From a virus: DNA of 28,326 nucleotides. The DNA lies in the IMG/VR virus record IMGVR_UViG_3300046048_000459, positions 1 to 28,326 of that record; one strand, 5' to 3'. Made by a program: the position numbers and the translations under genes. Each line of letters begins with the position of its first letter. Position 1 is the first letter of the stretch. Below are positions 2,616 through 20,732 of this stretch, piece after piece. Under the pieces are notes generated by a model. The model worked only from the letters and a program-made list of their open reading frames with translations, searched no databases and was not told where the DNA came from.

Positions 2616-3419
2616 TCAGTTCAGATCGGCATCACGGTTGCGCCAGTTACGCACGTCCTGCGGCTTTCTTGGGTCGAATCCCCAACGCGCCATGCTCGCC
2701 GCCTCGTCCTTGCTCGGGCGCGCCAGCGACCCAGGTCCGCGCCGCTGCGATCGTCCGGATACGCGCGAATCCCCGGCAACGTCGGCGCCCGTGCCCTGCT
2801 TGCGGTTCAACCTCGCGTCGATCTCGTCGTACAAACGCCGGTTGTTGCGCCCGAAACGCTGCTCCAGTTCGGTGGCGATCTGCTTGGCCTTGCGTGCCCG
2901 CACGCTGTCGTAGTTCGGCGAGCCCTCGTCGAACCAGTCCATGTTGCGATCTACCCACGCCTGCGCCTCGGGGGCCAGCGCCACCCGCTGCTGTTCGTGC
3001 GCCGCCGCTTCCTGCTCACGCTGCGGCTTGGCCGCCTCCGCCGACCGCTGCTCAATGACGAACCGCTTGCGCTCCAGCGCCCTAAGCGCCTTGTCGGCCG
3101 CGTCGAACACGTCCATGTCGTCCTCGTCGAGAGCCTTACGCCGTTTCGCCATCAGCTCGGCTTCCTGCTGCTCCAGCGCCGTCAGCTCGGCTTCCTGCGT
3201 ACCCTGTGCGGCGGCCTGCTCGCGCTCCTTCAGCGCCAGCTCGGCGGCAGCAAGTCGCTCCTCCATGCGCCGAATGGCCTCAGTACTGTCGTCAGTCGAT
3301 TGATCGGCCGGCCGCTCCTCATCGGTGTCGGCATCGGTATCGACGAAAGCCTCGTCCTCGTCGGTGAAATCGTCTTCGTCAACGAAATCTGCTGATTTTC
3401 CCATCGTGTCGTCCCCCAT
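2616..3419 (-). CDS. Scaffolding protein (probable)
   Basis: This protein of about 267 residues probably directs procapsid assembly and then leaves the head. The evidence is architecture rather than a motif: a very acidic, low-complexity N-terminus (many D/E, residues 5-40), a long Ala/Glu/Gln/Arg-rich helical region predicted as coiled coil (about 50-150), and a basic C-terminal end (ARWGFDPRKPQDVRNWRNRD). It lies between portal and capsid genes, the usual scaffold position. I chose the ATG at 3419, which overlaps the upstream TGA as TGATG. A GTG one codon earlier (3422) and an ATG at 3404 are alternatives. Confidence 0.7.
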   Translation of the reverse strand: MGDDTMGKSADFVDEDDFTDEDEAFVDTDADTDEERPADQSTDDSTEAIRRMEERLAAAELALKEREQAAAQGTQEAELTALEQQEAELMAKRRKALDEDDMDVFDAADKALRALERKRFVIEQRSAEAAKPQREQEAAAHEQQRVALAPEAQAWVDRNMDWFDEGSPNYDSVRARKAKQIATELEQRFGRNNRRLYDEIDARLNRKQGTGADVAGDSRVSGRSQRRGPGSLARPSKDEAASMARWGFDPRKPQDVRNWRNRDADLN

Positions 3420-3805
3420 CACATCACCAGCGCTTCCGGAGTGCTGGCCCGCGCCAACACCTCGTCGTCGTTCAGGACGCGGATGTCGATTGGCATCCCG
3501 TCGGCGTCCTTGAGCTTGAAGCTCATACCGCTGTACTGGCGAACGAGCACCCAGTCACCGACCTTGCACCAGGGCTCGGCGCCCATAAACTTGGGATGCG
3601 CGTAACAGTCCGGGCCAACCGCCAACACTTCTGCCACGAACTGGACATGCCGCCCAAGCTCCAAGGTCTCGTCCACCATCACGATGCCGCCCGCCGTCTT
3701 CTGGGCGATCTTCGCTGGGTGGACCAGTAGCCGATACCCAACCGGCTCCGGAAGCGTCCCAGGAACGATCTTCGGTCGTTCTATTTCAAGCACTATGGTT
3801 GACAC
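3419..3805 (-). CDS. GroES-like co-chaperonin (Cpn10 family)
   Basis: A protein of 128 residues with the Cpn10 pattern: PVGYRLLVHP near residue 22 (the strand that opens GroES), KTAGGIVMVDET at about 36-47, which matches the mobile loop that docks on GroEL, then AEVLAVGPD and a CKVGDWVLVRQYSG segment like the GroES core. It carries about 20 extra N-terminal residues and is longer than bacterial GroES (about 97). It is embedded between scaffold and portal-side genes. By analogy with T4 gp31, it may adapt the host GroEL to fold the phage capsid. The family call is strong. The capsid link is inferred from position. Confidence 0.85.
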   Translation of the reverse strand: MSTIVLEIERPKIVPGTLPEPVGYRLLVHPAKIAQKTAGGIVMVDETLELGRHVQFVAEVLAVGPDCYAHPKFMGAEPWCKVGDWVLVRQYSGMSFKLKDADGMPIDIRVLNDDEVLARASTPEALVM

Positions 3806-10376: not shown

Positions 10377-10550
10377 CAGCAGGGGTCCCGTCGAGCTGGA
10401 GAGCGGCTGGGCAGCGGTCCATACAGGGGTTTTTGAGGCGTTTCCTTAAAAATCAATCACCTAACAGTGCGTTATGTGGCTGTTTACTAGAACCCCTTTA
10501 AAATCAACCGCCTAACAGAACTTACGAAAAAACGCTAAAAATGCCTCACC

Positions 10551-10609
10551 TATGCGCACGCGCGCACGCGCGAGGGAGGGGGCCGGAAAAAAAATTCTAG
10601 GGGAGGGGG
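10551..10609 (+). other. Alternating purine-pyrimidine tract followed by G-runs (Z-DNA / G4 potential)
   Basis: Positions 10551-10572 alternate purine and pyrimidine without a break and are mostly CG and CA steps. G-runs follow at 10574-10576, 10578-10582, 10600-10603 and 10605-10609, which could in principle make a quadruplex on the plus strand with one long loop. Both lie just upstream of the rightward promoter candidate. Confidence 0.4.
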
Positions 10610-10619
10610 TACCGTTATT

Positions 10620-10648
10620 TTGTTAGGTTGTTGTAGTCCCTCTATATA
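10620..10648 (+). promoter_or_regulatory. Candidate rightward promoter (distal)
   Basis: TTGTTA (10620-10625), a 17-nt spacer and TATATA (10643-10648) give a reasonable sigma70 match. The -35 box overlaps an inverted CCTAACA motif (TGTTAGG, 10621-10627), so the iteron-binding protein could also control it. It would drive the plus-strand operon with a leader of about 225 nt. Confidence 0.4.
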
Positions 10649-10746
10649 TCCTTATTTTTCAGTATGTTGTGTGTGTGTTGCGCCTAACACTGGCCTAACA
10701 ACGTGAAACAAACGTCAGATCTGGCATGGAAACAAACGAAAAAAAA

Positions 10747-10775
10747 TTTACACGTAGGAAAAGATGTCCTACACT
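10747..10775 (+). promoter_or_regulatory. Candidate rightward promoter with operator palindrome in the spacer
   Basis: TTTACA (10747-10752), a 17-nt spacer and TACACT (10770-10775) match sigma70 consensus at 5 of 6 and 4 of 6 positions. The spacer holds the perfect inverted repeat GTAGGA (10754-10759) and TCCTAC (10767-10772), overlapping the -10 box as a repressor operator would. RNA would start near 10782, about 100 nt before the first plus-strand gene. Confidence 0.5.
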
Positions 10776-10879: not shown

Positions 10880-11122
10880 ATGAACGAGCGGAAGAAAATG
10901 ACCGAATCTGATCTCCGCGCCGTCCTCGCGGCCGAGGGATTCTCGTGGGAGATCGACGCCGAAATATCCCTGCTCGGAGCAGACACGATTATCGCGGCCA
11001 TGGAAGGGGACGGCGATCTAGCGACCGACGCAGGATGGGACGAGAACATCGTCAACGATGTGATCTCCAGAGCCCGCGCGATGGGATTCCGCGCCGTCTT
11101 CCGTGACGACTACCATCCCTAG
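10880..11122 (+). CDS. Hypothetical protein, first gene of rightward operon
   Basis: An 80-residue protein. I chose the ATG at 10880 because GGAGAG lies 4 nt upstream. The TTG at 10859 is in frame but has no site. The sequence is compact and mixed: MTESDLRAVLAAEGFSW reads like a helix, followed by an acidic region (AAMEGDGDLATDAGW) and the end FRAVFRDDYHP. There is no signal peptide or membrane segment. The family is unknown to me. As the promoter-proximal gene it may be among the first phage proteins made. Confidence 0.65.
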   Translation: MNERKKMTESDLRAVLAAEGFSWEIDAEISLLGADTIIAAMEGDGDLATDAGWDENIVNDVISRARAMGFRAVFRDDYHP

Positions 11123-11137
11123 AGACCAGAGAAACCG

Positions 11138-11344
11138 ATGAAAACCATGACCACAGACGAACTGCTGGAGACCCTGGAAAACTGCCAATACAGCTACGGG
11201 GATGGCAAATGCCGAATCGTCAACGACTCCTCCGAGATCGAGGCCGATGGCGAGATGTGGGCTGTGGTCAACGATCACGGCAACGTCGAGATTGGCTACA
11301 AGGGGCGCAACGGGCGCCTGTACTGGGTCGGCGGGCTCGTGTAG
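11138..11344 (+). CDS. Hypothetical small protein
   Basis: A 68-residue protein. It looks like a small beta-rich domain: acidic helix first (TTDELLETLENCQYSYGDG), then alternating short strands (EMWAVVNDHGNVEIGYKGRNG), ending YWVGGLV. It lies 15 bases after the previous gene. The upstream AGAGACCAGAGA is a loose Shine-Dalgarno of the kind used in this operon. I cannot assign a function. Confidence 0.65.
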   Translation: MKTMTTDELLETLENCQYSYGDGKCRIVNDSSEIEADGEMWAVVNDHGNVEIGYKGRNGRLYWVGGLV

Positions 11345-11368
11345 CCCACATAACAAGAGGATCAGACG

Positions 11369-11605
11369 ATGAAATACCAAGGCCACACAAACAAAACACA
11401 CTGGAATGTTGCGTTGTGGATCGGAAACGATGAACCACTGTATCGCATGGCTCAGAGCTACATCAGGATATACCGCAACAACGGAGGGCGGAAAGCGGCG
11501 GCAACCGCAATGCTCAACGATCTGCACGACAATGGAATTACCGAAACGCCCGACGGGTATCGGTACAGCGCGAGCGCCATCCGCGCAGCAATGGTTGGAA
11601 TGTAG
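11369..11605 (+). CDS. Small phage protein with WNVALWIGNDE motif (DUF7249-like)
   Basis: A 78-residue protein. The motif HWNVALWIGNDEPLYRMAQ (residues 11-29) is a recognisable signature of a family of small phage and plasmid proteins, often annotated as DUF7249. The family often ends with a 'TPDG…' turn, seen here as ITETPDGYRYS. The molecular function is unknown. It lies in the small-gene operon after an AAGAGGATC site. The domain name is from memory and is less certain than the motif. Confidence 0.7.
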   Translation: MKYQGHTNKTHWNVALWIGNDEPLYRMAQSYIRIYRNNGGRKAAATAMLNDLHDNGITETPDGYRYSASAIRAAMVGM

Positions 11606-11683
11606 CGCCAGAGTCCTAGCCATGGCGTCCCGCGGGGCGCCAGAACGAGGGCGCTACCGCCCCGGACAACCAGGAGAGACAAA

Positions 11684-12013
11684 ATGAAACCGATCACCAA
11701 ATACGAAGCCGTTGACGAGACCCTCGAACAGGTCGTCTGGGCACAGAAGCGCAGCTGGGGCGGGGCCGTCATCCCGTCCATCTCCATCCTCGATGTCGCC
11801 AACCGCATCGCCCGCGTTGACGCCCTCGGCAAGACTTCCAAGCGCGACCTGGAGACCATCCGCTCTGCGTTCGCCGAGGTGGCCGAGGAGCATGGGCTGA
11901 CGTTGCATCGTTACTTCGACGGCGACTGGCAGCTCGTGGTTCCCTTCGAGCCGCTCAGGCTGAGCGTACCGCAGGGTGACGAGTGGTGCGAAGGGACTTC
12001 CAACCAGTGGTGA
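11684..12013 (+). CDS. Hypothetical protein
   Basis: A 109-residue protein with a helical first part (KRDLETIRSAFAEVAEEHGLTLHRY) and a mixed C-terminal half (WQLVVPFEPLRLSVPQG). No motif is recognised. It starts 5-6 nt after AGGAGAG, in a context (CCGCCCCGGACAACCAGGAG, 11657-11676) that looks like a degenerate form of the stem-loop cassette found before later genes. A short GC hairpin also sits in the 78-nt gap before it. Function unknown. Confidence 0.65.
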   Translation: MKPITKYEAVDETLEQVVWAQKRSWGGAVIPSISILDVANRIARVDALGKTSKRDLETIRSAFAEVAEEHGLTLHRYFDGDWQLVVPFEPLRLSVPQGDEWCEGTSNQW

Positions 12014-12031
12014 GCGACAAGTCTCAGCGTC

Positions 12032-12051
12032 GAGGGCTGCGTGCAGCCCTC
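12032..12051 (+). other. Strong GC hairpin in gap between genes
   Basis: GAGGGCTGC (12032-12040) is perfectly complementary to GCAGCCCTC (12043-12051), with only GT between them. About four central nucleotides must stay unpaired. There is no T-run, so termination would be inefficient. It could protect or process the upstream message. Confidence 0.45.
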
Positions 12052-12095
12052 CGCGATGCGCCTGCATCAGATAAAAGAAGAGGACCAGACAATGA

Positions 12096-12120
12096 CCCTA
12101 GGGACGGGGCCAACCGGAGA
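12096..12120 (+). repeat. Stem-loop/SD cassette copy 1 (degenerate)
   Basis: The core GGGACGGGGCCAACCGGAGA (12101-12120) is identical to copy 2. The left arm is changed to CCCTA, leaving a weaker stem. The SD GGAGA lies 6 nt before the ATG at 12127. A 12-codon reading frame from 12091 crosses this copy and ends on the next start, but other copies have no such frame. Confidence 0.7.
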
Positions 12121-12126
12121 AAGCGA

Positions 12127-12333
12127 ATGAGCATTCAATACGCAAAAACCGCATACGTGGACGGATGGGGAAGCGACCGGAACGCCCGCCGAGTGCATGG
12201 GCTCACTGAGGATGAGCGAAAAGCCATCCGGAACGGCCAGGAAATTAGGCTGACCGGGTGCCCTGTGTATCATGGCGAGACTGAAAGGAAAATCGTTGAG
12301 ATCGGCGGCCGGTTTTACTGCCGCATGCCCTGA
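12127..12333 (+). CDS. Hypothetical small protein
   Basis: A 68-residue protein beginning MSIQYAKTAYVDGWGSDRN. The first cassette copy provides its ribosome-binding site. It contains a helical LTEDERKAIRNGQEI followed by a short strand-rich end (VEIGGRFYCRMP). It could be a small nucleic-acid or protein-binding domain, but nothing specific is recognised. The frame is open upstream to 11983, but only the ATG at 12127 has a proper Shine-Dalgarno. Confidence 0.65.
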   Translation: MSIQYAKTAYVDGWGSDRNARRVHGLTEDERKAIRNGQEIRLTGCPVYHGETERKIVEIGGRFYCRMP

Positions 12334-12346
12334 AATCCAGAACAAC

Positions 12347-12375
12347 CCGCCCCAGGGACGGGGCCAACCGGAGAG
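12347..12375 (+). repeat. Stem-loop/SD cassette copy 2
   Basis: Stem GCCCC (12349-12353) pairs with GGGGC (12360-12364) around the loop AGGGAC. CCAAC and the SD GGAGAG follow. The start codon of the next gene is at 12381. This copy is closest to the consensus. Confidence 0.85.
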
Positions 12376-12380
12376 ACAAG

Positions 12381-12743
12381 ATGAAGAGGCACGGTAAAAT
12401 TATCAATGCAGCGAAGGTCCGGAAGGGCCGGAAAGCCCTGAGGGAAATAGCGCACGGAAAGGATCTTCTCGCTGTTAGAGCCCGTCACCTCATTTCCCGT
12501 GGGGCAGTATTTGCAGAGGGATTCGGCAGTCTGCTTGAACAAGCAGGGGCGCCACTATCCTTCGCCGTGAAGGCGGAGCTGATATGGTCGGCCGCATATC
12601 CTGAAGCGGCCGAATTGGCCGCTCGGGAGTGGGAAGATGCTGCGGAGAATCATGAGACCGACAAGTGCTACTGCATTGCCGAGCTGATCAGGGAAGCCGC
12701 CCAACTGGAGAAACTCGATGAAAATTATTCACAAAATCGGTGA
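12381..12743 (+). CDS. Hypothetical protein, helical
   Basis: A 120-residue protein with a very basic start (MKRHGKIINAAKVRKGRKALRE) followed by Ala/Glu-rich helices (AELIWSAAYPEAAELAAREWEDAAENHE). The basic N-terminus could bind nucleic acid. I recognise no family. Its last 26 bases overlap the next gene in another frame, so the two are likely co-translated. Confidence 0.65.
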   Translation: MKRHGKIINAAKVRKGRKALREIAHGKDLLAVRARHLISRGAVFAEGFGSLLEQAGAPLSFAVKAELIWSAAYPEAAELAAREWEDAAENHETDKCYCIAELIREAAQLEKLDENYSQNR

Positions 12744-12942
12744 GATCACTTTCGTACAAACCCACGAAACTGACGGCTGGATTTGGGCGCATGTTGGGCA
12801 GATCTCCATGCCGCTTGCCCGATTTTACGACGATGAAGGGAACCTATATTCCTTTTACGACGAAGTCCACCCATACCGCGAAGTGCGCTTGGCGCATGCG
12901 TCAGGAGCGACATGGGAAGCCCTCGACGATTTTCAGCAGTGA
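12718..12942 (+). CDS. Hypothetical small protein, aromatic-rich
   Basis: A 74-residue protein, MKIIHKIGEITFVQTHETDG…, rich in aromatic residues (WIWAHVG, ARFYDDEGNLYSFYDEVHPY) and acidic at the end. It is probably a small beta domain. The start lies within the previous gene, with CTGGAGAAACTCG just upstream as Shine-Dalgarno. No stem-loop cassette precedes it, consistent with expression by coupling. Confidence 0.65.
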   Translation: MKIIHKIGEITFVQTHETDGWIWAHVGQISMPLARFYDDEGNLYSFYDEVHPYREVRLAHASGATWEALDDFQQ

Positions 12943-12954
12943 CAGCCGATAAAC

Positions 12955-12983
12955 CCGCCCCTGGGACGGGGCAAACCGGAGAG
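12955..12983 (+). repeat. Stem-loop/SD cassette copy 3
   Basis: GCCCC and GGGGC arms are conserved. The loop differs by one base (TGGGAC), and CAAAC replaces CCAAC. The SD GGAGAG precedes the ATG at 12990. Changes are in the loop and linker while the stem is kept. Confidence 0.85.
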
Positions 12984-12989
12984 AGAAAG

Positions 12990-13292
12990 ATGAGCATGAC
13001 AGCAGCCTTCGAGGCCGCCAGCCGCTACCCGAGCGGACTGACCCAGGAGCAGGAAAAGGCGGGAGCCGCCCTGTACAGGGTAGCCTGCGATTCGGTGGAT
13101 GGGTTTTCGAGATACGAACGGTCCCTGGCCAAAAGCCCGGTGCCCGATGGCAACGGATACTTCGACACCATGCGAAGGAACGCGATCATCCACGCCCGCA
13201 AGGAGCAGGATGCCGCATTCTGGTCCGTCATCCGGGCCGAGAAGGATGCTTCGGTGCGCGCATACGCCATCGCCATGGCGAATGATACGTAG
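12990..13292 (+). CDS. Hypothetical protein
   Basis: A 100-residue protein, MSMTAAFEAASRYPSGL…, mostly helical with scattered charges (RNAIIHARKEQDAAFWSVIRAEKDASVRAY). No signal peptide, membrane segment or known motif. The start at 12990 is set by the cassette SD. The frame is open further upstream (to 12912) but crosses the cassette and the end of the previous gene. Confidence 0.65.
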   Translation: MSMTAAFEAASRYPSGLTQEQEKAGAALYRVACDSVDGFSRYERSLAKSPVPDGNGYFDTMRRNAIIHARKEQDAAFWSVIRAEKDASVRAYAIAMANDT

Positions 13293-13301
13293 TCACTTAA
13301 T

Positions 13302-13330
13302 CCGCCCCAGGGACGGGGCCAACAGGAGAG
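13302..13330 (+). repeat. Stem-loop/SD cassette copy 4
   Basis: Stem and loop match copy 2. The linker is CCAACA and the SD GGAGAG, with the ATG at 13336. Confidence 0.85.
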
Positions 13331-13335
13331 CACAA

Positions 13336-13545
13336 ATGAGCGTTCAGATTTATCACATCGAAGGTTACTCCAGGGTCGATCATTTCGGCCAGGAGATCGT
13401 CAGACGAGCTGGTGAGCATCATCAAACGGTAGCGGAAGCCAGGCAAGCGGTTCGCGGGGTTATCGCGAGCTTGCCGAACTTGTGTCGCGATGCCGGTGCC
13501 CCGCGAATCGGCTGGTCGCGCGGCGACCGGCATGGAGTTATCTGA
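13336..13545 (+). CDS. Hypothetical small protein
   Basis: A 69-residue protein starting MSVQIYHIEGYSRVDHFGQ. A short strand region is followed by a helix (HHQTVAEARQAVRGVIASL) and a basic end. This beta-alpha pattern fits a small binding domain, but no family is recognised. The cassette provides the ribosome-binding site 6 nt before the ATG. Confidence 0.65.
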   Translation: MSVQIYHIEGYSRVDHFGQEIVRRAGEHHQTVAEARQAVRGVIASLPNLCRDAGAPRIGWSRGDRHGVI

Positions 13546-13555
13546 GCCAAACAAC

Positions 13556-13584
13556 CAGCCCCAGGGACGGGGCCAACTGGAGAG
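13556..13584 (+). repeat. Stem-loop/SD cassette copy 5
   Basis: GCCCC-AGGGAC-GGGGC is conserved and the linker is CCAACT. The SD GGAGAG lies 4-5 nt before the ATG at 13589. Confidence 0.85.
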
Positions 13585-13588
13585 ACCA

Positions 13589-13756
13589 ATGAAAACCGAA
13601 TACAACGACAATACCCTGACCGTTATCGACGAAGATGGCGGGATCTGGTGGCCTAGCGAAGAGGCTCAAGAAGAAATCGAAGCGAGCGAAAACCCAGAAC
13701 TCGCGGCGATGCTGATTTGCGAATATCAGCCGATGCGCGGACGCTGGGCGCAGTAA
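13589..13756 (+). CDS. Small acidic hypothetical protein
   Basis: A 55-residue protein with many Asp and Glu (MKTEYNDNTLTVIDEDGGIW, then EEAQEEIEASENPE). Small acidic phage proteins are often inhibitors that mimic DNA or bind host enzymes. Here that is only a possibility suggested by charge. The start is fixed by cassette copy 5. Confidence 0.6.
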   Translation: MKTEYNDNTLTVIDEDGGIWWPSEEAQEEIEASENPELAAMLICEYQPMRGRWAQ

Positions 13757-13774
13757 CAACAGCGGAGAGCAGAC

Positions 13775-14269
13775 ATGATTTATGAAGCATTATACGGAAA
13801 GGACGGCTATGATGCCGCGCTGAAACAGGTTAAGCACTGGATCTCAAGTGACGGTTACTACCGAGCTCCGCATGGAAGTGGAGCGGCTTCGCTGGCGGAA
13901 AAGAAGTACGGTTGGCCGGCCGGATGTCGTGGTAAGAAGGCAAAACCAGATCCGTTTTGTCCGATAGCGAAGCCGGAGGAATCGCAAATAGATGAATTTG
14001 CCGAAATCCAATGGATGTCTTGTACCGGCAACATCGCAAGGTTGACTTTCGACCATGCGCAAAAGTCGGTTACGCTGCTGATTGATTCGCGCCGGCACGG
14101 GATTCCATCCGTGTTTTATTTCTGCGGCAATGATTCTCCGACACCCCAAAGTGTGCTTCGCTACGAAACGCAGCAACCAACATGGCAGTGGTGGGAGAAC
14201 GCAGACATGAAGAGGGAAGGGGCGGAAAGGGGGGCGGAAAGGCGGAAAGGGGCCAGGCTCAAACGTTAG
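13775..14269 (+). CDS. Hypothetical protein with low-complexity basic tail
   Basis: A 164-residue protein. The N-terminal part includes YDAALKQVKHWISSDGYYRAP and the motif YGWPAGCRGKKAKPDPFCP, with two Cys. The middle is strand-rich (ARLTFDHAQKSVTLLIDSRR). The last 20 residues (MKREGAERGAERRKGARLKR) come from a G/A-rich DNA stretch that looks like repeat expansion. GGAGAG precedes the ATG without the stem-loop cassette. Codon use is more AT-rich than its neighbours. Not recognised. Confidence 0.6.
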   Translation: MIYEALYGKDGYDAALKQVKHWISSDGYYRAPHGSGAASLAEKKYGWPAGCRGKKAKPDPFCPIAKPEESQIDEFAEIQWMSCTGNIARLTFDHAQKSVTLLIDSRRHGIPSVFYFCGNDSPTPQSVLRYETQQPTWQWWENADMKREGAERGAERRKGARLKR

Positions 14270-14279
14270 TAACGAACAT

Positions 14280-14308
14280 CCGCCCCAGGGACGGGGCCAA
14301 CAGGAGAA
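14280..14308 (+). repeat. Stem-loop/SD cassette copy 6
   Basis: It is identical to copy 4 except that the final base gives GGAGAA. The ATG of the next gene is at 14314. This is the last copy: following genes overlap and do without it. Confidence 0.85.
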
Positions 14309-14313
14309 CGACA

Positions 14314-14496
14314 ATGAACGAATCCATCACGCAGGCAGCTCAAACCGCCGACCTGCTCTGCCGTGAGTTGACGGACGCGCTCTGCGACGCGTCACCAATC
14401 CTCGTCTTGCTCCTGATGGAGCGACTCGAGGAGGCCGCGAACCTCCGCCGGGAGCTTGATCTGCTGAAAAAGGCAGCGGAGGAGGATGACGAATGA
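14314..14496 (+). CDS. Small helical hypothetical protein
   Basis: A 60-residue, almost wholly helical protein (SPILVLLLMERLEEAANLRRELDLLKKAAEEDDE). Leu and Ala spacing in the second half suggests a short coiled coil, with an acidic tail. LVLLLM is too short and too surrounded by charge for a clear membrane span. The end overlaps the next start (ATGA). Confidence 0.6.
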   Translation: MNESITQAAQTADLLCRELTDALCDASPILVLLLMERLEEAANLRRELDLLKKAAEEDDE

Positions 14497-14732
14497 ACAC
14501 CATCGGCGGCACGCCACTGTCCGAGGAGCGCGCTGAGAGGCGCGCGGACGCCATTGAATATGCGATGGATCGCGAGGTAGACCGGATGCTTGACGAGATG
14601 ACGCTCGCCGAAGCGTGGAGCTCCATGGACCTGGACAACGCCGAGGTCGGGGACACGACAATCGGTATCCTGCTGATGGACAAGCTTTATGAATTGGCGG
14701 CCTGTCGGCTCGCGGAAGGAGGCGTAGCGTGA
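14493..14732 (+). CDS. Hypothetical small acidic protein
   Basis: A 79-residue helical and acidic protein (RRADAIEYAMDREVDRMLDEMTLAEAWSSMDLDNAEVGD). It overlaps the preceding gene by ATGA and the following one by GTGA, so these three plus the Ala-rich gene form one coupled unit. No recognised family. Confidence 0.6.
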   Translation: MNTIGGTPLSEERAERRADAIEYAMDREVDRMLDEMTLAEAWSSMDLDNAEVGDTTIGILLMDKLYELAACRLAEGGVA

Positions 14733-14926
14733 AATCCCCAAGTTCGACCGAGCTGCGCGCGTACATGCGCAGGCACCGGCTCCAGGGGCAGGTTGTCGCT
14801 GATCTGCTCGGGGTGAGTAGGCGCACTGTTTACCGGTGGACGGCACCGGAAGGCACTGCGGCGCACACGCCGATGCCGGAGGCGCAATGGTTTGTGCTAA
14901 CGAAGAGGAATTACAATGAGCGTTGA
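14729..14926 (+). CDS. Small helix-turn-helix protein
   Basis: A 65-residue protein. Residues about 8-33 read as a helix-turn-helix: LRAYMRRHRLQGQVVADLLGVSRRTVYRWT, where GQVVADLLGVS is helix 2 plus turn and RRTVYRW the recognition helix. It resembles XRE/Cro-type or MerR-like small regulators. It may regulate phage promoters, for example the palindromes in the control region, but no link is shown. The start is GTG with a strong AAGGAGG site, overlapping the previous stop. Confidence 0.7.
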   Translation: MKSPSSTELRAYMRRHRLQGQVVADLLGVSRRTVYRWTAPEGTAAHTPMPEAQWFVLTKRNYNER

Positions 14927-15638
14927 AGCATGGCACTTCCTGCCAGACGACGGACGTTTGCGGTTTGGCAATAGGCAGAAGGTTGTTGTCGGAGAAACAC
15001 TAAGCATCAGCGAGCGCCCGATTCTCTGCGAACGCGGTTTTCACGCATCGAGATCGGCGCGTGATGCGCTGTCGTATGCGCCTGGAGGGCTCCTATGCCG
15101 AGTGAGCGTAGGAGGAGAGATCATAGAGGATGATAACAAATTGGTAGGGCAGGAGCGCACCGTTATTTGGATGCGCGATGCGACCAACATGCTGCGCGCG
15201 TTTGCTAGAGAGCAGGCTCTATCGGTGTCCCATTTATGGGACGCGCCGCAAGTGGTCCACGAATATCTGATCGGGGGTAACGAATCGATAAGGAGAGACG
15301 CTCGGGCCGCCGCTTGGGACGCTGCTTTGGCCGCCGCTTGGGATGCTGCTTGGGACGCCGCTCGGGCCGCCGCTTGGGCCGCCGCTCGGGACGCCGCTCG
15401 GGACGCCGCTTGGGACGCCGCTTGGGACGCCGCTCGGGGCGCCTCTCTGGGCGCAGCTCGGGCCTCCGTCCAGGCCGCCGCTCGGGGCGCCTCTCTGGGC
15501 GCAGCTCGGGCCTCCGTCCAGGCCTCCTCTATGGACGGCTCTGTGAACGCCGCTTGGTACGCCGCTTTGACCGCATCTCTGGACGCCGCTCGGTGGCGGT
15601 TTGAGGACCTTTGCCTCGCGATGGAGCATGCAGCATGA
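14916..15638 (+). CDS. DUF7666-like protein with Ala-rich tandem repeats
   Basis: A 240-residue protein. The N-terminal domain (about 1-125) shows AWHFLPDDGRLRFGN, ILCERGFHASRSARDALSYA and GLLCRVSVGGEI, a pattern I associate with phage proteins annotated as DUF7666. From about residue 127 to 205 it becomes a repeat region of four-residue units A-A-W/R-D, then a 16-residue unit present twice (RGASLGAARASVQAAA type). A short C-terminal helix (RWRFEDLCLAMEHA) ends it. The repeats probably form a long helix or solenoid. The role is unknown. It overlaps the HTH gene by 11 bases. Confidence 0.7.
   Translation: MSVEAWHFLPDDGRLRFGNRQKVVVGETLSISERPILCERGFHASRSARDALSYAPGGLLCRVSVGGEIIEDDNKLVGQERTVIWMRDATNMLRAFAREQALSVSHLWDAPQVVHEYLIGGNESIRRDARAAAWDAALAAAWDAAWDAARAAAWAAARDAARDAAWDAAWDAARGASLGAARASVQAAARGASLGAARASVQASSMDGSVNAAWYAALTASLDAARWRFEDLCLAMEHAA
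15297..15524 (+). repeat. 12-bp tandem repeats and a perfect 48-bp duplication inside the Ala-rich gene
   Basis: From about 15300 to 15440, 12-bp units of the form GCCGCTYGGGMC follow each other in frame. Positions 15429-15476 are then repeated exactly at 15477-15524. All units are multiples of three, so gain or loss keeps the frame. The near identity at DNA level suggests recent expansion. Confidence 0.85.
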
Positions 15639-15722: not shown

Positions 15723-15752
15723 AAAAAGCCCCCGGAAGGGGGCTTGTTTTTT
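15723..15752. terminator. Bidirectional rho-independent terminator between convergent operons
   Basis: AAGCCCCC (15726-15733), tetraloop GGAA, GGGGGCTT (15738-15745), with T-runs on the right (15747-15752) and A-runs on the left (15723-15727). It can stop both the rightward operon and the leftward operon whose last gene ends at 15756. Confidence 0.92.
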
Positions 15753-18755: not shown

Positions 18756-18946
18756 TATGATTCTTGCGTCCCGACCTGAAGATAATCCTCGCACCTGCGC
18801 TTGAACCCTTCTCCGAGGTAGAAGCGCGGGACGTGGCCGATGTTGCACGACCCAAAACGCCAGTGATGGCACTGGTTGCACTGCTTGGCAGGCTTGAGCT
18901 GCGCCGGCCGGTAGACGCCGATGCGAACGCCGGATCGGCTAGGCAT
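18755..18946 (-). CDS. Small Cys-rich protein starting inside the 63-bp repeat
   Basis: A 63-residue protein, MPSRSGVRIGVYRP…, containing KQCNQCHHWRFGSCNIGHVP and a later RRCEDYL, four Cys arranged as a compact zinc-binding module. Its first six residues are encoded by the direct repeat shared with the methyltransferase gene start (20670-20732). In this copy GGAGG stands 9 nt before the ATG, a good ribosome-binding site. Function unknown. Confidence 0.7.
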   Translation of the reverse strand: MPSRSGVRIGVYRPAQLKPAKQCNQCHHWRFGSCNIGHVPRFYLGEGFKRRCEDYLQVGTQES

Positions 18947-18992
18947 TGGTATGGTCCTCCACGATTCCAGGTGCGCCGGCCCGTTCAGCGGC
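18930..18992. repeat. 63-bp direct repeat, left copy
   Basis: 62 of 63 bases are identical to 20670-20732, exactly 1740 bp away. On the minus strand it encodes the C-terminus AERAGAPGIVEDHTNA of one gene, its stop, and the start MPSRSG of the next, so it spans a gene junction. The single difference is at 18957 (C here, A in the other copy). Confidence 0.95.
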
Positions 18993-19859: not shown

Positions 19860-20698
19860 GTTTCATTGGCTCCAATGATGTCCAATTGATCGGCCAATTC
19901 ATCAGCCACTCGACCCACGTCGGGTTCAATCTCCCACCAGCCGGAATAACAAGGCACGCTGGATCCGTAAGTTGCCCACGTCGTTGACCTGCCCGCGATG
20001 CAGTTTTCCAATCCGTCGCGCAAGGTGTCGGAATCATCCAGACCACCTTCGCAATTTGGACATCCATACTTTCCGAGCATGCCATGGTCAAAGACGTATC
20101 CGCAAAACATACACTCCTTGTATTGACAATTTGCATCTTCGGCAACGATCCAGATCCTCTCTCGAAGGTGGGGAGCTCCGACATCGGCAGCTCCCAGCAC
20201 TCCCCATCGAGCATCGAACCCCATCGCGGCCAGGTCTCCGAGAACCACTCCGAGTCCTCGAACAGTGAGCATTGGCGAGTTTTCCACGAACGCATAGCGT
20301 GGTCGTACTTCACCGATGATTCGCGCCATTTCCACCCAGAGTCCGGAGCGCTCGCCGGTGATTCCGGCGCCCTTTCCGGCGGCGCTGATGTCCTGACAGG
20401 GAAAGCCGCCAGAAACCACGTCAACACGGCCGCACCACGGTCGTCCGTCAAAGCTCCGAACGTCATCCCATATCGGGAAAGGCGGGAGAAGGCCGTCATT
20501 CTGTCGGGCGACAAGTACGCTCGCGGCATAGGGGTCGTACTCGACGGCGCAGACGGTGCGCCAGCCGAGGAGGTGTCCTCCGAGTATGCCTCCACCTGCC
20601 CCGGCGAACAGGGCAAGTTCGCGTAGCCCTCCATCATCGCTCGGCTGATAAGCCATGACATTCTCTAGCCCGGATCGGCTAGGCATTGGTATGGTCAT
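19856..20698 (-). CDS. DNA C5-cytosine methyltransferase, lacking its own final motif
   Basis: A 280-residue protein that would transfer a methyl group from SAM to cytosine C5. Motif I is ALFAGAGGG (29-37), motif II VEYDP, motif IV GGFPCQDIS with catalytic C101, motif VI VENSP and motif VIII GAPHLRERIWIVA (174-186). The target-recognition region contains an apparent zinc ribbon (CMFC…CPNC, about 196-215). The C-terminus (PDVGRVADELADQLDIIG) begins like the run-up to the final motif, but VDRLKAxGNGQVP is missing and lies downstream in another frame. It may be inactive or depend on the displaced piece. The start at 20698 is uncertain, with Met at 20686 and 20656 as alternatives. Confidence 0.85.
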   Translation of the reverse strand: MTIPMPSRSGLENVMAYQPSDDGGLRELALFAGAGGGILGGHLLGWRTVCAVEYDPYAASVLVARQNDGLLPPFPIWDDVRSFDGRPWCGRVDVVSGGFPCQDISAAGKGAGITGERSGLWVEMARIIGEVRPRYAFVENSPMLTVRGLGVVLGDLAAMGFDARWGVLGAADVGAPHLRERIWIVAEDANCQYKECMFCGYVFDHGMLGKYGCPNCEGGLDDSDTLRDGLENCIAGRSTTWATYGSSVPCYSGWWEIEPDVGRVADELADQLDIIGANET

Positions 20699-20732
20699 CC
20701 ACGATTCCAGGTGCGCCGGCCCGTTCAGCGGC
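20670..20732. repeat. 63-bp direct repeat, right copy
   Basis: This is the partner of 18930-18992. Here it joins the end of the 80-residue gene (AERAGAPGIVDDHTNA) to the start of the methyltransferase gene. The one changed base (A at 20697) turns the GGAGG ribosome-binding site of the left copy into GGATG, creating an earlier ATG. Confidence 0.95.

Follow-up and report, generated by a model that had tools for sequence, protein, structure and literature searches.

Six near-identical copies of a short cassette precede six small genes of an uncultivated phage, in a 28.3-kb virus record of IMG/VR, the partial genome IMGVR_UViG_3300046048_000459 (all 28,326 nucleotides (nt) analysed here are called the window). 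Every copy lies on the + strand and reads GCCCC, a loop NGGGAC, GGGGC, a linker NAAC, one further base and GGAGA, that is, a self-complementary block followed by a Shine-Dalgarno sequence (SD). The six-copy observation itself is solid. The cassette belongs to a known kind of element, the start-associated repeats, and represents, in several copies, a leader layout seen elsewhere before single genes, not a new kind of system. With regard to its role, we assign a probability of about 0.5 to the reading that it is a generic translation-initiation leader at the RNA level, copied from junction to junction within the operon. Start-associated repeats have been noted in a few phages since 2011 and their function is unexplained; the present case offers a compact hairpin, a fixed distance between hairpin and SD and six copies, and it ties the multi-copy repeats to a single-copy hairpin-AAC-SD layout recurring across unrelated phages. 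Such a leader could be a portable part for multi-gene expression from one message.

Sequence, placement and spacing of the copies can be read directly from the window. A 25-mer search yielded matches starting at 12096, 12350, 12958, 13305, 13559 and 14283, all on the + strand and with 0–2 mismatches, and none in 100 shuffles of the window; the six copies described in an earlier note, which a model had made from the letters alone, are thus borne out, as is its statement that they end shortly before an ATG. Exactly 5 nt separate the end of the hairpin (GGGGC) from GGAG and 6–8 nt separate GGAG from the ATG, in 6/6 copies each; the ATGs served lie at 12127, 12381, 12990, 13336, 13589 and 14314. 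The bases GGGAC of the loop and AAC of the linker are invariant in all six. Variation is found at position 1 of the loop and position 1 of the linker (one copy each), at the base before GGAG (C, A or T), at the base after GGAGA, and in the left arm, where both changes belong to copy 1. The earlier note had placed the changes mainly in loop and linker, which holds for these first positions but not for the invariant GGGAC and AAC or the two left-arm changes; its count of five kept stems stands, copy 1 alone being reduced to 4/5 pairs, one of them U-G. Beyond the cassette block, the similarity between copies is at chance level by column counts, and the copies end sharply.

The leaders and the genes behind them, all on the + strand, are arranged as follows. 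Copy 1 (12091–12126), with a diverged left arm, a weakened hairpin and an intact right half, precedes the gene at 12127–12333 (68 aa); copy 2 (12345–12380) precedes 12381–12743 (120 aa); copy 3 (12953–12989), in which the loop changes from A to T and the linker from C to A, precedes 12990–13292 (100 aa); copy 4 (13300–13335) precedes 13336–13545 (69 aa); copy 5 (13554–13588) precedes 13589–13756 (55 aa); and copy 6 (14278–14313) precedes 14314–14496 (60 aa). The product of the gene behind copy 4 has no significant family match and the other five have none. Three copies allow an extension of the hairpin at the SD, where an upstream UCC can pair with GGA (copies 4 and 6) or an upstream CCA with UGG (copy 5); in the folding models, this pairing is a possible weak lock. 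Copy 1 is also read through by a 12-codon mini open reading frame (mini-ORF) at 12092–12130 (ATG ACC CTA GGG ACG GGG CCA ACC GGA GAA AGC GAA TGA), which has its own SD-like GAGGA and whose end overlaps the start of gene 12127; it may be the cause of the diverged left arm.

When the proteins of the operon were compared with one another, no significant similarity was found, and paralogy of the six cassette-led genes was rejected. Unrelated genes behind near-identical leaders would suit a recombination joint, in which the cassette acts as a homology block for gain, loss and shuffling of gene-plus-leader modules, and both the sharp ends of the copies and the range of G+C at third codon positions (GC3, 0.56 to 0.78 across the six genes) are in line with it. 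However, a length of 25–30 bp is barely enough for homologous recombination, the exact placement relative to SD and start codon would have to be explained separately, and no relative with a rearranged gene order was found. A joint of this kind would moreover tell how the copies spread and not what they do. We regard it as improbable, and the swapping of small genes proposed in the earlier note is not established.

The placement of the cassettes follows the junctions of the operon, a single run of 15 small + strand genes from 10880 to 15638. The cassettes occupy 6/7 of its long gaps (at least 40 nt), and at five clean junctions the previous stop codon lies 11–15 nt before the hairpin; copy 1, with its weakened stem and a gap of 113 nt, is the exception. 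Neither the overlapping junctions (12718, 14493, 14729 and 14916) nor the short gaps of 15–24 nt (before 11138, 11369 and 13775) carry a cassette. The genes led by the copies were therefore called successive too readily, as 12718, with an overlapping start, and 13775, after a gap of 18 nt, intervene without a cassette; the three genes after the copy-6 gene (14493, 14729 and 14916) likewise have overlapping starts. The remaining long gap holds a degenerate seventh leader (11645–11683, +) before gene 11684, where hairpin, AAC and SD are retained on another stem sequence: GGGCG-CUAC-CGCCC (CTAC in the DNA) is followed by CGGACAACCAGGAGAGACAAAATG, and its similar tail, ACAACCAGGAGAGA, is of the AAC-AGGAGAGA type as in the six cassettes. 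Thus, 7/7 gaps of 40 nt or more contain a perfect hairpin with a stem of 5 bp or longer, compared with a mean of 0.86 and a maximum of 4 in shuffles. A strong SD is found in most genes of the + operon and is absent from most genes on the - strand.

Many other phages show the same layout of stop codon, short GC hairpin, AAC linker, SD and ATG ahead of single, unrelated genes. With a broader query (GCCCC, a loop of any 3–9 nt, GGGGC, NAAC, N, GGAG), 61 viral loci were retrieved, or 33 clusters after removal of near-duplicates. An ATG follows GGAG by 4–9 nt in 12/33 clusters (2.0 per offset vs 0.33, an approximately 6-fold over-representation); stem, NAAC and GGAG are fixed by the query and the independent evidence is position and loop only, which counts among the points against a generic leader taken up below. 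In the largest cluster, 21/22 members carry a GCAA, GAAA or GCGA tetraloop, and the stem GGCCCC/GGGGCC, closed by a GNRA loop and lying immediately upstream of SD and ATG, recurs in unrelated phages. A preserved stem with loops of the GNRA type speaks for RNA and not for DNA, and we read these leaders as RNA-level elements for that reason. A query with the GNRA-loop leader of the largest cluster matched 44 INPHARED records, and in 7/7 inspected cases (Klebsiella phages HJK1, KA1-2 and KOX1, Cronobacter phages CR3 and CS01, Escherichia phage PTXU04 and Pectobacterium phage P7_Pc) the leader stands between a stop codon and the SD and ATG of the next gene. CS01 has two such leaders in 350 nt. In an unrelated IMG/VR phage (L164, a 63.8-kb contig), three leaders lie within 1.5 kb, including 887–911 and 1263–1287, with hairpins GCCCC-GCAA/GAAA/GATT-GGGGC; judged by these sequences, it is a possible independent multi-copy case.

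These phages, together with an enterobacterial IMG/VR group (L139 and relatives), share with the window the stop codon, the short gap, a GC hairpin (GGCCCC-GNRA-GGGGCC or GCCCC/GGGGC), a linker mostly starting with AAC, the SD and the ATG. For example, the leader of Klebsiella phage HJK1 is AATCCGGCCCCGCAAGGGGCCAACTGGAGGAAAACATG, compared with AATCCGCCCCAGGGACGGGGCCAACAGGAGAGCACAAATG in the present phage. The other leaders differ in having a tetraloop, often a 6-bp stem, and 1–3 copies per genome where counted, whereas six copies with one near-identical loop are the present phage's own feature. If a descriptive class of hairpin-linker-SD leaders is defined here by stop, short gap, GC hairpin, a linker of 4–6 nt, SD and ATG, 5/6 copies have every one of these features and copy 1 departs from it by its weakened stem and long gap. 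In a partial literature search, we found no description of hairpin-AAC-SD leaders as a class, and we make no claim of priority.

From this arrangement we infer that the message folds into the hairpin and that translation is affected by it. The cassette would be an intergenic mRNA leader between the cistrons of a polycistronic transcript, made up of a GC hairpin of 5 bp, a linker of constant length (5 nt) and a strong SD, and non-overlapping small genes would thereby each recruit ribosomes independently. The hairpin would start just past the position at which a ribosome stops at the end of the preceding gene, and a defined landing site for the 30S subunit may be provided by the SD together with the AAC linker, which is unpaired. 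Near-identity of the copies would reflect copying of the leader, alone or with its gene, within the phage lineage and not six independent origins, and pairing of CC, UCC or CCA with GG(A) in the SD, which extends the hairpin weakly, may adjust leader strength. The structures at ORF boundaries of Escherichia coli operon mRNAs are similar in that they were proposed to keep adjacent ORFs translationally separate (PMC5318159); they differ in being a genome-wide general property with no repeated sequence cassette.

Several observations weigh against a generic leader. Among the six copies, no pair is changed on both sides (no covariation), and conservation of the unpaired loop and linker equals that of the stem; the copies alone hence do not prove an RNA structure and, taken by themselves, amount to sequence conservation in a block that is, as it happens, self-complementary. 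A folding energy of about -11 kcal/mol is predicted for the five intact leaders, but shuffles come out nearly equal (z of -0.5 to -1.4 vs GC-rich shuffles for these five, and +1.0 to -1.4 for single leaders overall, not better than shuffles). The probability of the stem in longer context ranges from 0.26 to 0.99. The predicted accessibility of the SD did not rise over that with a shuffled hairpin; exposure of the SD by the hairpin was therefore rejected as a reading, and folding gives no support to passive insulation of the SD. In 7/8 distinct upstream contexts of GGCCCC-N4-GGGGCC leaders (mostly the L139 group), the outer UCC/GGA pairing is retained, but it is not claimed as general because it is missing from most other enterobacterial leaders displayed. 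Finally, the invariance of GGGAC and AAC exceeds what a generic hairpin needs; it fits sequence-specific recognition or very recent copying, between which the sequence of one genome does not distinguish.

Sequence-specific recognition would make the six genes a regulon, in which the loop AGGGAC and the linker are bound by an RNA-binding protein or small RNA of phage or host origin, and the six leaders are co-repressed or co-activated. The constancy of GGGAC, AAC and spacing in 6/6 copies speaks for it, and the SD is within reach of the element, with the UCC/CCA pairing of three copies at hand. However, no candidate RNA-binding protein appeared among the scanned proteins of this partial contig, many of which have no family, the identity of the copies is equally well explained by recent copying, and the loop is free in other phages, GNRA or otherwise. 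We consider such a regulon unlikely, while leaving it some weight. A narrower form, a post-transcriptional regulon in which one phage factor, encoded outside the partial genome or unrecognised in it, reads the AGGGAC hairpin and switches the six genes together, appears quite unlikely. A dedicated regulator acting in trans is conceivable but has no support, and control of all six genes by one phage factor, as the earlier note had suggested, is not established: no regulator was identified, and covariation and SD accessibility gave the negative results described above. The generic leader is favoured over a dedicated regulon because the same layout, mostly in single copy and with other loops, precedes unrelated genes in many phages.

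Searches for the cassette itself beyond the window gave little. The full pattern had no match in IMG/VR outside this record, exact or near cassettes in INPHARED phages and PLSDB plasmids were chance-level matches only, and the single match in GTDB genomes (L023) lies inside a coding sequence and is a coincidence. No relative was close by terminase, primase or concatenated small proteins; a portal profile found at least 597 relatives, of which the best 80 are 34–40% identical. The cassette was found in 0/33 related IMG/VR records (portal relatives including terminase and primase matches), and start-associated repeats are rare among these records. None of the other records searched has the consensus exactly, and it is the looser layout that often precedes an ATG.

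Looser patterns in IMG/VR were mostly in-gene coincidences. The exception is an otherwise unrelated contig (L012) with the close variant GCCCC-GGGGGAC-GGGGC-AAAC-A-GGAGA-UUGAGC-AUG; its similarity to the cassette is only suggestive because a match of this kind, by our estimate, is marginal for a database of such size. A sigma-70 promoter is predicted there (TTGACA-16-TAATAT), whose start would be 2–4 nt before the hairpin, so that the leader would be the whole 5' untranslated region. A hairpin at the 5' terminus of a transcript, as predicted there, and the presence of a single GC hairpin shortly after the stop codon at each long junction would also suit an element of RNA processing or stability that, after cleavage between the cistrons (e.g. 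by RNase E), labels or shields the 5' ends of the monocistronic fragments. Yet RNase III requires a stem much longer than 5 bp, and the 11–15 nt single-stranded stretch before the hairpin is only loosely A-rich; we hold processing to be unlikely.

Among known elements, the start-associated sequences (SAS) and extended SAS (ESAS) of cluster K mycobacteriophages are SD-containing multi-copy repeats of unknown function before unrelated small genes (PMC3203893, PMC11373665, PMC12699233). The cassette resembles SAS as a short SD-containing repeat, mostly in one orientation, a few nt from the starts of many unrelated non-structural genes (PMC3203893); in the window too, the SD lies inside the repeat, a few nt from the starts of unrelated genes outside the structural module. 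The sequences are unrelated, and the 13-bp SAS consensus GGGATAGGAGCCC (up to 2 deviations) gave one chance-level match (0.7 expected) at no cassette. The inverted repeats of ESAS are 17 bp long and contain predicted promoters, and their hairpin formation was judged poorly supported (PMC11373665); with arms of 5 bp and no promoter-like site, the cassette is not such a 17-bp imperfect inverted repeat with promoter hexamers. Cluster K thus remains the fair analogue that the earlier note had seen, and Citrobacter phage Mordin and Roseobacter phages CRP-901/902 are closer multi-copy analogues. Mordin carries a 26-bp SAS-like repeat of unknown function before unrelated small genes (PMC4611695). This repeat ends in AAACTGGAGA ahead of the small-gene run (PMC4611695) and, in the folding done here, usually has a hairpin upstream; it differs in that the core lies in the linker and SD (an 11-mer core with 16 copies, as counted here) and the hairpins vary in sequence and position. 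The repeats of cluster O are of a different kind and not start-linked (PMC4351075).

Judged by terminase and portal (37–38% identical), CRP-901/902 are the closest sequenced relatives of the present phage. In these phages, we found a start-associated repeat that precedes the small + strand genes gp24, 25, 27 and 29 of CRP-901 in four copies (L025, 12016–12073, 12646–12702, 13265–13325 and 14278–14333; also in L031). It reads TTGTAATCTGTGACA-NN-TGTCAC..TATATA..GAGAGAGAGGAAA and is not in the record annotation. The repeat is AT-rich and unrelated in sequence to the cassette, and it has terminator-like hairpins upstream of some copies; together with the palindrome TGACA-NN-TGTCA between TTGTAA and TATATA-like hexamers, these make it probably, at least partly, transcriptional.

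By analogy with this repeat or ESAS, the cassette could be a DNA-level site, i.e. an operator, roadblock or promoter for each gene: GCCCC-N6-GGGGC is a palindrome as well, gene 14729 of the operon encodes a small helix-turn-helix protein, and both the CRP-901/902 palindrome between promoter-like hexamers and the predicted promoters in the ESAS of phage Adephagia (PMC11373665) show start-associated repeats of this sort. However, no promoter-like site fits the cassettes, conservation continues through the centre of the palindrome, the linker and the SD, all copies share one orientation and a fixed distance to the SD, and the previous stop codon is only 11–15 nt upstream of the hairpin in 5/6. 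We regard a DNA-level site as very improbable. In Alcaligenes phage QDWS535 (L028, - strand), a perfect palindrome (TCCTAATATTAGGA) upstream of three candidate starts looks, by its sequence, like an operator.

Other known elements were rejected in turn. No T-run follows any copy on the + strand (0/6) and no + strand terminator was called at any of them, so the cassettes are not intrinsic (Rho-independent) terminators; this agrees with the earlier note, as does the finding of a start-associated hairpin and SD leader instead of a clustered regularly interspaced short palindromic repeat (CRISPR) array. Matches to the lambda-type boxB hairpin (GCCCTGAARAAGGGC-type) were at chance level and none lay at a cassette, and the aligned copies have no GTTRRRY-type core 5' of the hairpin as in integron attC sites (GTTRRRY and RYYYAAC cores). 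Covariance models of Rfam gave no gathering-level match in the window and, with E relaxed to 5, still none at the cassettes.

The + strand operon lies between two blocks on the - strand, one with terminase, portal and capsid genes in the left part of the window (60% G+C overall) and one with primase and helicase genes in the right part. A candidate sigma-70 promoter (10747–10775, +, TTTACA-17-TACACT) is weak (9/12), and sites of this type number 3 in the window vs 3.5 expected in shuffles; it is a candidate because it precedes the first + strand gene. Behind the last gene, a hairpin with a GTTTTTT tail (15726–15745, +) is, from its sequence, a good candidate for the intrinsic terminator closing the operon. 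The non-coding region at 10460–10700 upstream of the operon contains five copies of CCTAACA (four +, one -), compared with about one expected window-wide, which are possible operator sites or origin iterons. Within gene 14916, whose product matches DUF7666 in its N-terminal part, a 12-bp repeat array (15240–15617) encodes an alanine-rich repeat of the AAWDAARDA type. The head module includes a GroES-like co-chaperonin (3419–3805, -, Pfam Cpn10), which is so annotated in CRP-901, DSL-LC04 and HTVC027P and is common to the present phage and CRP-901/902. Lastly, a near-perfect (98%) direct repeat of 63 bp at 18930–18992 and 20670–20732 spans the common C-terminal end (AERAGAPGIV.DHTNA) of two otherwise different genes.

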